Shown here one piece after another: positions 22,896 to 55,013 of a stretch of 64,000 nt of DNA. Numbering within the stretch: position 1 is the stretch's first letter; each line of letters starts with the position of its first letter. The stretch lies in assembly GCF_007859935.1 (NCBI RefSeq), contig NZ_SJPO01000002.1, positions 62,001-126,000 on the forward strand. The letters are read 5' to 3'. The notes under the pieces are model-generated. The model did not search any database and had not been told where the DNA came from. It saw only the letters and a program-made list of their open reading frames with translations. Both the position numbers and the translations under genes were made by a program. Origin of the DNA: Posidoniimonas polymericola (lineage in GTDB: Bacteria > Planctomycetota > Planctomycetia > Pirellulales > Lacipirellulaceae).

Positions 22896-23048
22896 GGGTA
22901 CTTGGCGATCCATCCGTATTGGCGGTTTGTTGTAGAGACATGCCACCGCGTCGGCTCTAATGGGGGAGGCAACGCCATGCAGCGAGGGTCTGAGGCGGTG
23001 GCCGCCGAGCGTTTTGTCCGGCTGAGGGCCGTTTGGGTGGAGCTCAAT

Positions 23049-23173
23049 GGACAAAACCCACGCCGCCCGAGGGGCGACGCGGGTTGTAAGTCGTTATGAA
23101 AATACACCTTGCGGCGATTGGGGCTGTCCGCGAGGCAGGGTTTTGTCCCCTCCGCTGGATATTCGGACAAAAC
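23049..23173 (+). repeat. 125-nt element with GGACAAAACCC ends, copy 1
   Basis: It starts GGACAAAACCC, has GTAAGT at offset 37, an internal GGGTTTTGTCC at 23138-23148 (perfect complement of the start), and ends CGGACAAAAC. The copies at 36585 and 54889 have the same length and motif spacing. More GTTTTGTCC and GGACAAAACC fragments lie nearby (about 23010 and 23279). Nothing else in 22215-23301 looks like a gene. Confidence 0.8.
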
Positions 23174-32570: not shown

Positions 32571-32617
32571 CGACTTTTGTCCCCAATTCGCACATCGATT
32601 CATAGGGACAAAAGTCG
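32571..32617. repeat. 13-bp perfect inverted repeat CGACTTTTGTCCC
   Basis: The arms are 32571-32583 and 32605-32617 around a 21-nt loop. The GGGACAAAAG core resembles the ends of the 125-nt GGACAAAACCC family. Related TGTGTCCC...GGACAAAACTC sequence lies at about 32700-32740. The rest of 32446-33022 shows no gene. Confidence 0.7.
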
Positions 32618-33022
32618 GGCCCCACTGGCGGCCGCGAGGGCCGTTTCACGCTGCTATTTCAGTCTCCGCGGGTTTTGTCTCCCAGTTGGAACCCCGACTT
32701 GTGTCCCTTTCTGCTCGTTGGCATGGACAAAACTCACGGTCGCCCCCGCCCAAGTATCCAGCAACCATGGGCGGAAGCCGTTGGCGCCAATCGCTGCCAC
32801 CAGAGCCGATTCCGACGCCTGCAAGAACCCCAGCCAGCCCCTTCATTGGACCACGCTCGGCGGCGCTTCTCTACCACGAAATCGCCAGCAGGCCAACCAG
32901 CCTGCGCGCCCACCTGGGCCCAGCAAGCCCCGCCCTCCTCTTCAACCGCTGGGATCCAGAGCAAGATCCTTACCGCCCCGGCGAATACCCGCGCAACCAC
33001 AAGTTCATTTGGAGCACTAAAC

Positions 33023-33690: not shown

Positions 33691-35704
33691 GTGTACGCCC
33701 GGCACGGGCGTGATTGTTGTGGGGTGCAAGTCCCCTGTACGAGACTGGGAGTCTCACGGAGATCAGTCTACCAAATGCCGGCTCCGATCGACAAAGTACT
33801 AGACGAGGGCAACTGCGGAAGGGCGACCGACCGTGGGGAGGAAGCCTGCGAATGCGTGCGTAAGCACCGGCCTGATTTCGCCGCCGGTCGCATTCTCGTC
33901 AAAGCTGCGAGGCTACGAACAGAAACGCCATACAAGGCCGGTTCGACCAGGCGAGTGAGCACAACATCACGAAGCCGTTCCCAGTCGGTCGCTCAGGTAA
34001 ATGGCGAGCTTGCGCAGCGAAGCATCACGCTCTTATCCGGGGAGACCTGCCCGACGGCCTGCGAGCCGTCGGTCGCTCCAGCGAGTAAGGCTTGCCTGAA
34101 AGGCTGGAACGCCGCGGAGCCATCCACGGCGGGCGAGGCAGGAGTCAGCCGAGGTCGTAGTACCGACCCTCGAAAACCAATCGAGACGGGAAGGACCGAA
34201 CGATGAAGAACAAGGAGGAGCCATCGACCAACTCGCTACGAGGGAACCCCTCGGCGCCAACCCAGCAGGACCACCCTGCTGGCCGAGGCGACGAGACCAC
34301 ACGTTCACTATCCCGACCGGGACGAACCGTAGCGGCGCGGGCCGAGCAGCCAGCCTTGAGCTTATTCCCGATGTCTTTGATGGAGGCCGTTGTCGACCAG
34401 GCCAACCTCGAAACCGCCTGGAGAAACGTGAAAGCGAACCGCGGAGCCCCCGGCCCCGATGGGATCACGATCACGAAGTTCCCCGACTGGTTCCGAACAC
34501 GGTGGCCGCAGGTCCGACAGCAGCTCCTCGGTGGGACGTACCGGCCAGGACCGGTGCGGCGCAAAACCATCGACAAACCCGATGGCGGCCAGCGGTTGCT
34601 CGGTATCCCAAACGTGCTCGACCGACTGATTCAGCAAGCCATCGTCCAGGTCCTGACGCCGATCTTCGACCCGCATTTCAGCGAGTCGAGCTTCGGTTTT
34701 CGGCCCCAACGCTCTGCTCATGGAGCAGCCAAGCAGGTCGGGCGTACGATCCGTCGTGGTCATCGCTATGCCGCCGACATCGATCTGTCGAAGTTCTTCG
34801 ACCGAGTTCAGCACGACGTCCTGCTGACGCGTGTCGCTCGTCGAGTCGACGACAAGCTGCTGCTGCGATTGATCGGCCGCTACCTGCGAGCGGGCGTGAT
34901 GGTCGATGGAGCTCTGCAACCAACCGATATTGGCACGCCCCAAGGCGGTCCACTCAGCCCGATCTTAAGCAACATCCTGCTTGACGATCTGGACAAGGAG
35001 TTGGAACGCCGAGGGCTGCCGTTCGTGCGGTACGCGGATGATTTCGCCGTCTTTGCGAAATCGAAACGTAGTGCCGAGCGAATCATGACATCGGTCTCGC
35101 GCTACTTGACTGGCGCCCTTCGCTTGGTGGTGAACCAAGAGAAGAGCCAGGTTGTCGCCAGCACAGAATTCGAGTTCCTTGGATTCGCATTCGTCAAATC
35201 GCGCGCGACGATCAACGTAGCGGCGAAGTCCGTCCGGAAGTTCAAGCAGCGTATCCGCGAGATTACCGGCCGCAGCCGGGGCATCTCGATGGAGGATCGC
35301 TTGGGCAGACTGCGACGATACGTTCGCGGCTGGATGGGCTACTTCGGCTTGGCGTCTCAGTTGAAGCTGTTCGACAGACTCGACCAGTGGATACGTCGTC
35401 GCATTCGAATGTGTCACTGGAAACAGTGGCGTCGGCCGAAACGCCGACGCGAAATGCTCATTCGGCTCGGCGTTCCGCGACGTCAAGCGATTCGCCACGC
35501 ACGCAGTCGCCAAGGCTACTGGCACATGTCCAAAACCATCGCCAGCGGCGTGGGGCTCAACAATGCGTGGCTTGCAGAACAGGGACTCCTCAGCATCAAG
35601 ACACTCTGGGCAGAGCTTGCTCCCCTTCGTCGAACCGCCTAGTGCGGACCCGCATGCTAGGTGGTGTGGGGAGGGTCACCGGCAACGGTGGCCCTTACCC
35701 GGTT
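33691..35704 (+). mobile_element. Group II intron (class C, attC-inserted type) with maturase
   Basis: The 5' end GTGTACGCCCGGCACGGGCGTG is a group II 5' start with its first domain I hairpin. About 500 nt of ribozyme precede the reverse transcriptase gene. After the gene stop, the region 35641-35676 (AGTGCGGACCCGCATG...) has the look of domain V, and 35675-35697 (GGGTCACCG-GCAA-CGGTGGCCC) of domain VI. Start and end were set so that the rejoined exons read GCATT-GTTATG, restoring the attC; the 3' boundary could be a few bases earlier. Class C introns of this group are known to insert in attC bottom strands of integron cassettes, opposite to cassette genes, exactly the arrangement here. Confidence 0.8.
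34203..35642 (+). CDS. ltrA: Group II intron reverse transcriptase/maturase
   Basis: The protein has 479 residues; an AAGGA lies 7 nt before the ATG. Reverse transcriptase motifs are intact: GAPGPDGI at ~81-88, RLLGIPNVLDRLIQQAI, the DIDLSKFFDRVQHD block near 192-205, TPQGGPLSP at 245-253 and the catalytic YADD at 277-280. A maturase (X) domain (RLRRYVRGWMGYFGLA) and basic C-terminus follow. There is no HNH endonuclease domain, as in class C introns that use single-stranded or hairpin targets. It promotes splicing of the intron RNA and retrohoming. All motifs are intact, so the element is probably functional. Confidence 0.95.
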   Translation: MKNKEEPSTNSLRGNPSAPTQQDHPAGRGDETTRSLSRPGRTVAARAEQPALSLFPMSLMEAVVDQANLETAWRNVKANRGAPGPDGITITKFPDWFRTRWPQVRQQLLGGTYRPGPVRRKTIDKPDGGQRLLGIPNVLDRLIQQAIVQVLTPIFDPHFSESSFGFRPQRSAHGAAKQVGRTIRRGHRYAADIDLSKFFDRVQHDVLLTRVARRVDDKLLLRLIGRYLRAGVMVDGALQPTDIGTPQGGPLSPILSNILLDDLDKELERRGLPFVRYADDFAVFAKSKRSAERIMTSVSRYLTGALRLVVNQEKSQVVASTEFEFLGFAFVKSRATINVAAKSVRKFKQRIREITGRSRGISMEDRLGRLRRYVRGWMGYFGLASQLKLFDRLDQWIRRRIRMCHWKQWRRPKRRREMLIRLGVPRRQAIRHARSRQGYWHMSKTIASGVGLNNAWLAEQGLLSIKTLWAELAPLRRTA

Positions 35705-36175: not shown

Positions 36176-36584
36176 TTCAGTAAGCAGACTGCCATTCTAG
36201 CGGGCTACCGCGCGCCTTCTCAAGCTTCCTGCTTCTCGACAGCGATGGCAATCTCCTGCGGCAATCGGGCAGGCAGCTAGCGCGCTGAGGTTGTCTCAAA
36301 CTCGGTTAGCACTCGGTACGGCAACTGGGCGGCGGCATCATCCGCCGACGCTGCGATCCTTGCTGACTCCGCGGAGACATCTTCGCCTGCCACCCTGCCC
36401 TTCTTCCCATTTCCTTGTAGAAACCACCCACCCCTCATGGTCCAATGAGGGGTCTGCGCACGGTCTTGGGTTGGCGTAGTGTCGGCTCGATTCGCGTAGT
36501 TGGCCGGAGACCCTCCGACTTCCGCCGGAGGTTGCTGCGGTGGGGCAGGCAGCGTGGGGCGGTTTCTGCCGGGCGGGGCGTGGC

Positions 36585-36709
36585 GGACAAAACCCGGCGG
36601 GGTGGCTGCTTGCGGTGGTCGTAAGTTGTTTGCTGATGGCGGTTTGCGGTGGCTTGGAGCTAGGCGTGCCGGGGGTTTTGTCCCCTCCGATCGATATTTC
36701 GGACTTAAC
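36585..36709 (+). repeat. 125-nt element with GGACAAAACCC ends, copy 2
   Basis: It starts GGACAAAACCC, has GTAAGT at offset 36, internal GGGTTTTGTCC at 36673-36683, and ends CGGACTTAAC. It ends 138 bp before the DUF1593 start codon and so could be part of that leader. The rest of 36176-36847 holds no gene I support. Confidence 0.8.
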
Positions 36710-54578: not shown

Positions 54579-54888
54579 GCTTCTAGTTGTGGCAAGACGG
54601 GAGGTTTCGATCGAGGATCCGCACCCTAGCTGGGTCGCAACTTAGCACACCCACGGTCCGAAACGAACACCGCTGGTCAGCCAGGCGAGACTCCGACATC
54701 TCACCGATTCTTGGTGGAAAATGGCCACCCAGCGCGGTCCAATCGTGTTGACGGTAGAAGTCCGATAGCCGCCTGCGGGAGCCGGCGGTGACGTGTGCGG
54801 CTGCGCGGTGTGGTTGGTCAACTGCCGGCTGCCGCTGACAGCGGCGTGTCGGCCGCGATGGGGATCGTGTCCCGTGCGTCGCGCGACA

Positions 54889-55013
54889 GGACAAAACCCT
54901 CCGGCGGGTGCGACGGGGGTTGTCGCAAGTGATTTGTTCGTATTGGTTTAGGGGTTGTGTCAGTTGGTGCGCGGCGGGGTTTTGTCCCCTTGGATCGTTT
55001 TTTCGGACTAAAC
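54889..55013 (+). repeat. 125-nt element with GGACAAAACCC ends, copy 3
   Basis: It starts GGACAAAACCC, has GCAAGT at offset 36, internal GGGTTTTGTCC at 54977-54987, and ends CGGACTAAAC. It lies between the small secreted protein and the penicillin-acylase gene, in a 588-bp gap (54579-55166) with no gene I support. Confidence 0.8.

Follow-up and report, generated by a model that had tools for sequence, protein, structure and literature searches.

Three stretches of 125 nt recur in the window, i.e., the whole 64,000-nt stretch of Posidoniimonas polymericola DNA that was analysed, and they raise the question of whether such repeats are structured RNAs or non-autonomous mobile elements, as the earlier note suggested, or elements of another kind. 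Re-reading of the sequence confirms the three copies at 23049-23173, 36585-36709 and 54889-55013 with the motifs assigned to them, and one of these motifs is more frequent than expected by chance: GGACAAAAC, with at most one mismatch, occurs 19 times in the window, compared to 7.0 expected from 100 shuffles (sd 2.7), none of which reaches 19.

Units in the window and in the genomes

The 125-nt copies are real, but they constitute only the 3′ half of a larger unit, which has a promoter-like motif upstream. The unit is composed of this 44-nt motif, a body that is not conserved, and a module of fixed layout in which a palindromic core has arms on either side. In the 5′ to 3′ direction, the module reads arm a1 (..TTTTGTCC), arm b1 (GGACAAAA..), core, arm a2 and arm b2; arm a1 is unreadable in many units, and arm b2 is often followed by GAATCGGACAAAAC in a second genome of the same genus (G001). 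The arms are mutually complementary, as claimed before, although there are up to four of them rather than three. The four units of the window are 250-312 nt each (those of the family roughly 250-310 nt):

22924..23173, plus strand: unit 1, whole, from promoter-like motif to arm b2 (sequence, arm search, promoter profile)
22924..22967, plus: promoter-like motif of unit 1, -10 TCTAAT (36.4 bits; in training set)
23011..23019, plus: arm a1 of unit 1, GTTTTGTCC (arm search)
23049..23057, plus: arm b1 of unit 1, GGACAAAAC (arm search)
23085..23113, plus: core of unit 1, class-1 dyad TGTAA..TTGCG, 29 nt (sequence)
23140..23148, plus: arm a2 of unit 1, GTTTTGTCC (arm search)
23165..23173, plus: arm b2 of unit 1, GGACAAAAC (arm search)
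36409..36709, plus: unit 2, whole, no exact arm a1 seen (sequence, arm search, promoter profile)
36409..36452, plus: promoter-like motif of unit 2 (48.0 bits; in training set)
36585..36593, plus: arm b1 of unit 2 (arm search)
36620..36648, plus: core of unit 2, class-1 dyad CGTAA..TTGCG (sequence)
36675..36683, plus: arm a2 of unit 2 (arm search)
36701..36709, plus: arm b2 of unit 2, degenerate, GGACTTAAC (sequence)
54706..55013, plus: unit 3, whole, no exact arm a1 seen (sequence, arm search, promoter profile)
54706..54749, plus: promoter-like motif of unit 3 (46.5 bits; in training set)
54889..54897, plus: arm b1 of unit 3 (arm search)
54924..54952, plus: core of unit 3, class-1 dyad CGCAA..TTAGG, last pair degenerate (sequence)
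54979..54987, plus: arm a2 of unit 3 (arm search)
55005..55013, plus: arm b2 of unit 3, GGACTAAAC (arm search)
32571..32882, minus strand: unit 4, whole, containing the "smaller relatives" of 32571 and 32700 (arm search, promoter profile)
32839..32882, minus: promoter-like motif of unit 4 (44.9 bits; outside training set)
32725..32733, minus: arm a1 of unit 4, type-1 letters (arm search)
32695..32707, minus: arm b1 of unit 4, GGGACACAAGTCG, one mismatch to type 2 (sequence)
32643..32667, minus: core of unit 4, class 2 (sequence)
32605..32617, minus: arm a2 of unit 4, CGACTTTTGTCCC (sequence, arm search)
32571..32582, minus: arm b2 of unit 4, GGACAAAAGTCG (sequence, arm search)

The "smaller relatives" noticed at 32571 and 32700 are parts of a fourth unit, on the minus strand and mostly of the other arm type. 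The window also holds a group II intron at 33901-35642, in which an RT/maturase ORF at 34203-35642 (RVT_1, GIIM) comes after the Rfam domains D1-D4 at 33901-34196. A penicillin-amidase-like gene adjoins unit 3, and the four relatives found for it are in planctomycete records.

In the source genome (G000; 6.26 Mb, 27 contigs), the pattern GGACAAAACCC N{60,90} GTTTTGTCC gives 43 forward and 41 reverse matches, while the reversed pattern gives 0. With the strands merged, the strict arm pattern is found at 48 places in G000 and 70 in G001, 118 copies together, and from its start through GTTTTGTCC the pattern spans 98-104 nt, except for one copy of 93 nt; the expectation of a genome-wide family of nearly fixed length is therefore borne out. 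The other 37 relatives yield a single match in three genomes only. A sequence-only profile (R1), with 150 candidates scored per genome and both strands of one place able to count, gives at least 148 matches at E <= 0.01 in G000 and at least 148 in G001. The total for G000 is about 101 places, composed of 67 listed profile rows at E <= 3.3e-12, HTH-gene copies included, and 34 places with the second arm type described below, no listed row of which coincides with the 67. Profile matches are present in 15 of the 43 family genomes, and closer searches, counting both strands, give 43 in G050, 28 in G040, 27 in G021 (genus g13) and 8 in G055. The class-2 core word TGCTATAGAAGCGT occurs in 3 of 196 genomes of the order, and the plasmid collection contains no match to the first copy. 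The results listed by literature searches, largely without subscription papers, include no report of these units, and of the 416 papers that contain one of the four arm-letter strings, none of the ten listed concerns planctomycetes.

The units lie nearly all outside genes, the exception being six of the 118 copies, which are inside ORFs of one HTH protein family. The gene caller, trained on the window only and calling 64% of bases coding, missed the six HTH ORFs around copies. In the four G000 cases that were read out, the copy is in frame near the C-terminus (GTKP..GFVPSLRVFGQN), and the end of a G021 HTH ORF, ..GSFGPTNLDPGSCPKTN.., is encoded by that genome's own arm letters. By eye, the HTH genes have upstream of them a start motif like that of the units. 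Of three HTH proteins tested, one is above the cut-off for PF13384. The protein was rejected as an exclusive partner of the units, being present in 36 of the 43 family genomes, several of them without a profile match.

Promoter-like start, core and arms

The 118 copies were oriented by their conserved 26-nt tail. On the tail side, called genes of G000 lie at -4 to 30 nt in several cases, while there are none within 141 nt on the other side. The words enriched opposite the tail lead to a motif close to TTSTTGTNGAAACCGGCCACCNNGCGYGGTCYAATR, which played no part in finding the units. At least 20 of its 28 positions are matched upstream of 103 of the 118 units, compared to 1/118 for reversed sequence, 1/118 for the opposite strand and 4/118 for random places in the same loci, which can contain other units; at 17 of 28 positions, 33-42 of 118 controls already match. 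Of the six HTH-gene copies, five are among the 15 copies below the threshold, having fewer than 17 matches, and another of the 15 lies near a contig end. A promoter profile was built from 105 copies, three of the four window units being in the training set, and it gives four matches above 10 bits in the window, each at a unit, whereas the best of ten mononucleotide shuffles has 7.9 bits. It was the match outside the training set (32839-32882, minus) that exposed the fourth unit at 32571-32882. In G021, 7 of the 16 chosen loci have both hexamers 16-17 nt apart with different spacer letters, as expected of a promoter, and the two-hexamer pattern has no match elsewhere in these loci. Matches to the strict promoter pattern are present at 2 of 14 G040 loci, while the 14 loci of G050 and the 7 of G055 have none.

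A quasi-palindrome, GTG..TACG..GTACAC, is often seen by eye just after the -10 motif (L067-L135, in G001), most clearly in front of HTH genes, and is a candidate operator. A role of the unit as cis-regulator of the next gene was rejected, as the called downstream genes are 29 same and 19 opposite in orientation in G000, and 31 same and 38 opposite in G001 (one without call).

The class-1 cores are CGYAA...TTRCG dyads with an 11-7-11 arrangement, the central nucleotides of which vary between copies. Among 157 sequences, 41 class-1 pairs lie 24-34 nt apart, and the span is 29 nt in 40 of them and 28 nt in one, although the count was made without a length preference; the reversed-sequence control has 1 match. 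Class-2 cores are centred on CACTGCTATA.., and the class-1 dyad of G021 is by eye a near-perfect inverted repeat. Relative to independent columns, the halves of the 40 class-1 cores show no pairing excess at 10 of 11 positions (e.g., 22/40 vs 24.2 expected at position 3), the exception being position 8, with 24/40 vs 16.4. The core was therefore rejected as an RNA stem, and the near absence of excess argues for a dyad of duplex DNA. An invertible promoter segment was also discarded, since the occurrence of class-1 cores in forward and reverse orientation is explicable by the near-palindromic core. In G040, extra class-1 half-sites adjoin the module at L191, L193, L195 and L199, as if the cores were arrayed.

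A second type of arms, GGACAAAAG...CTTTTGTCC, is found at 34 places in G000 and 45 in G001 (79 together; controls 0), and at none in G021, G050, G055 and G011. The mixed b1/a2 combination, GGACAAAAC...CTTTTGTCC, is present at one place in G000 and six in G001, and at a single place each in G050 and G055. In a set of 151 units, which takes in 7 mixed units on purpose, the variable bases are complementary between a1 and b1 in 50 of 56 readable cases and between a2 and b2 in 97 of 106.

The covariation was examined by swapping partners 2000 times among units having all four arms exact. For 42 units of G001, swapping lowers the complementarity of a1-b1, a2-b2 and a2-b1, with 0 of 2000 swaps reaching the observed value, and a1-b2, for which no pairing is required, passes as well (p = 0.001). 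For 8 units of G000, the p values are 0.40 for a1-b1, 0.008 for a2-b2, 0.017 for a2-b1 and 0.27 for a1-b2. G021 shows no covariation (six rows representing four distinct places), and the two units of G040 are too few. When the swaps are confined to one arm type, G001 gives p = 0.045, 0.026 and 0.64, and G000 nothing. The arms are mutually complementary, as proposed before, but their covariation comes down largely to a single switch of the whole module from one arm type to the other and is weak within a type. The types agree within a unit. The numbers of class-1/class-2 cores are 22/22 for type 1, 3/6 for type 2 and 1/0 for mixed arms in G000, and 51/17, 2/21 and 1/5, respectively, in G001, so that arm type and core class combine freely, all four combinations existing in each genome. 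Other inverted repeats adjoin profile matches in G050 (L168-L210), such as 'gcgctaatcttcgc..' and 'gtgccactg..cagtggcac'.

Unit positions in two species

A BLAST of 77 unit loci of G000 against 112 of G001 provided a list from which 18 homologous pairs were picked, most of them homologous on one flank only. In 15 of the 18, as read by the author, side and orientation of the unit agree between the two species. The exceptions are L044/L089, with a different orientation, L034/L325, with a different side, and L035/L105, where the units lie on opposite sides of a tRNA-Gly. The gene separating the two positions of the latter pair, a tRNA-Gly(CCC) (L035:2304-2375 and L105:1107-1178), gives the appearance of independent insertion. 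L047 and L113 differ by about 700 nt in how far the unit lies from the common flank. The gene behind unit 2 has a G001 homologue without a unit directly upstream, a type-2 unit being listed ~1.9 kb upstream of it. In five of the 15 pairs, the arm type differs between the species (window unit 3/L293, L021/L320, L052/L327, L335/L106 and L272/L331).

The segments could be compared for the 8 of 15 pairs that the script could segment. The identity of the bodies, 0.32-0.61, is at the shuffled level (0.31-0.57), while that of the promoters is 0.55-0.80 and of the modules 0.61-0.69, compared to 0.51-0.56 after shuffling; the tail is at or below the shuffled level in two of the pairs. Random G000/G001 pairs give 0.57-0.75 (median 0.66) for the promoter and 0.60-0.72 (median 0.65) for the module. 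The likeness of paired units is thus no greater than that of units taken at random, and vertical retention and re-insertion at the same spots are therefore not separated. As both members of a pair were chosen by their motifs, the identity comparison cannot show selection. The paired units may be old orthologues that were kept close to the consensus of the family, or they may stem from re-insertion at favoured spots.

Explanations and related systems

The reading that we tentatively prefer, while regarding it as somewhat short of probable, is a transcribed, dispersed, promoter-bearing and mostly intergenic family of units of a planctomycete lineage, the 125-nt copies being its 3′ modules, bound as DNA by protein. 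RNA polymerase would start at a sigma-70-like (or ECF-like) promoter and transcribe through the body as far as the module. A dimeric protein would bind the 11-7-11 dyad or the class-2 palindrome in double-stranded DNA, with the arms serving as accessory sites or folding as hairpins, and dyad and arms together could act in ending or handling the transcript, or in marking the site. The family probably spread in the distant past as a non-autonomous element, given that the promoter-like start and the module are common to the longer HTH-gene units, and many members would now be kept by selection on promoter and module. The promoter-like start, the fixed geometry and the recurring positions point to a transcribed, protein-read element, possibly kept by selection. 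With regard to the acting molecule, the core would speak for DNA, while the arms allow both DNA and RNA.

A paralogous family of small-RNA genes, forming either a pair of hairpins (a1-b1 and a2-b2) or a single long stem (b1-a2) as a bistable switch, would account for the promoter-like motif, for the complementary arms of coordinated type, and for the own partners surpassing swapped ones in G001 (a1-b1, a2-b2, a2-b1) and G000 (a2-b2, a2-b1). It is less easily reconciled with the weak covariation within a type, the a1-b2 pair that passes and the G000 a1-b1 pair that fails the swap test, the absence of covariation in G021, and the core positions lacking a pairing excess. The folding is divided: z-scores are -1.1, -1.3, -0.5 and -3.6 for window units 1-4, and -1.8, -3.0, -2.7 and -3.8 for four other stretches, the -1.8 belonging to L333, a stretch that cut off the module and contains the tail hairpin and downstream DNA only. 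At the gathering threshold, Rfam has no match at the window units, its only matches in the window being two group II intron domains, and in permissive mode the eight matches at six loci are all below gathering. Three of the four window modules fold at z no better than -1.3. A structured RNA, as the earlier note had it, is possible, and we consider the small-RNA family doubtful. The main alternative to a transcribed, protein-read element is mobility, which is strengthened by the random-pair control. A selfish MITE- or REPIN-like miniature element, moved by a trans-acting recombinase with dyad and arms as its binding sites and having the HTH-gene units as longer relatives, would fit the high copy number, the inverted arms, the lineage-specific expansion (15 of 43 family genomes), the start and module common to HTH genes, the three of 18 loci with displaced or turned units, and the paired units being no more alike than random ones. 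The copies are, however, far from identical, 15 of the 18 loci keep side and orientation, and none of the three HTH proteins tested has a transposase domain in Pfam. The non-autonomous mobile element proposed initially agrees with the copy number and some displaced insertions, and finds no transposase in those proteins; we regard the selfish element as unlikely.

In a phage attP site of a tyrosine recombinase, inverted core sites enclose a 7-nt centre, and arm-type sites lie on the outside; the crossover centre of such att sites is conserved, and the recombinase is linked to them. The units are similar in their inverted core halves around a 7-nt centre and in the inverted arms on either side at a nearly fixed distance, as would suit arm-type and core-type sites for such an enzyme. 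Unlike attP, they are multicopy, with about a hundred sites per genome, and their central nucleotides differ between copies, which makes site-specific recombination sites very improbable. The integron attC was rejected: the common arm letters do not conform to its motif, RYYYAAC/GTTRRRY, the degenerate b2 of unit 2 being an exception, and the unit copies in the window are spaced 9-19 kb from each other.

The known kinds that come closest are CREE, QMITE1 and REPINs. The Correia repeat enclosed elements (CREE) of Neisseria are reported with more than 100 copies per genome, mostly intergenic, of 69-151 bp, with inverted repeats and a core, a 26-bp Correia repeat and associated promoters, and are called unique to Neisseria (PMC5039591). 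The units resemble them in copy number, intergenic position, inverted repeats with a core, and association with promoter-like sequence, and differ in their length (250-312 nt in the window), in having a promoter-like start and a body, in the number of arms, which is up to four, and in coming with two arm types and two core classes. A similar size, copy number and promoter are found in QMITE1 of Coxiella burnetii, which is reported with 300-400 bp, ~50 copies, sigma-70 promoters, transcription at several loci, inter-strain linkage and direct repeats of 2-3 nt (PMC5896051); the unit bodies, on the other hand, are not alignable between the paired units examined (8 pairs). REPINs are extragenic inverted doublets able to form hairpins (PMC3116915), and share with the units the extragenic position and the inverted repeats, but not up to four arms, a 29-nt dyad and a promoter-like start. 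GTAG-/CGTC-tagged REPs, palindromes of 20-40 bp, are reported from Planctomycetes too (PMC3733652). A genome with REPINs or REPs has a dedicated RAYT (Y1 transposase). By eye, the consensus has no GTAG/CGTC tag beside arms or core, although the promoter-like motif itself is often TTGTAG. A MITE has terminal inverted repeats and target-site duplications, and shares its ends with an autonomous transposon; the inverted arms of the units lie inside the unit.

A more far-reaching form of the preferred reading, which we hold to be quite unlikely, would see a network across the chromosome in which about a hundred or more non-coding units are each transcribed from a promoter of their own and end in an exchangeable address, made up of one of two arm types and one of two palindromic cores. 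This address would be swapped as a block between species at fixed loci, and the HTH genes, carrying it in frame, may encode its reader.

A related species often has a unit at the same spot, and the units may therefore serve the cell. Repeat families of this size are usually put down to selfish DNA, but this one would have a function for the host if its units are transcribed and retained at their positions; its two arm types and two core classes would then offer a concrete way to its readers, be they proteins or RNAs. If the units are mobile, the family would represent a miniature element that carries a promoter together with an unusual, exchangeable module, found also within the coding frame of HTH genes.
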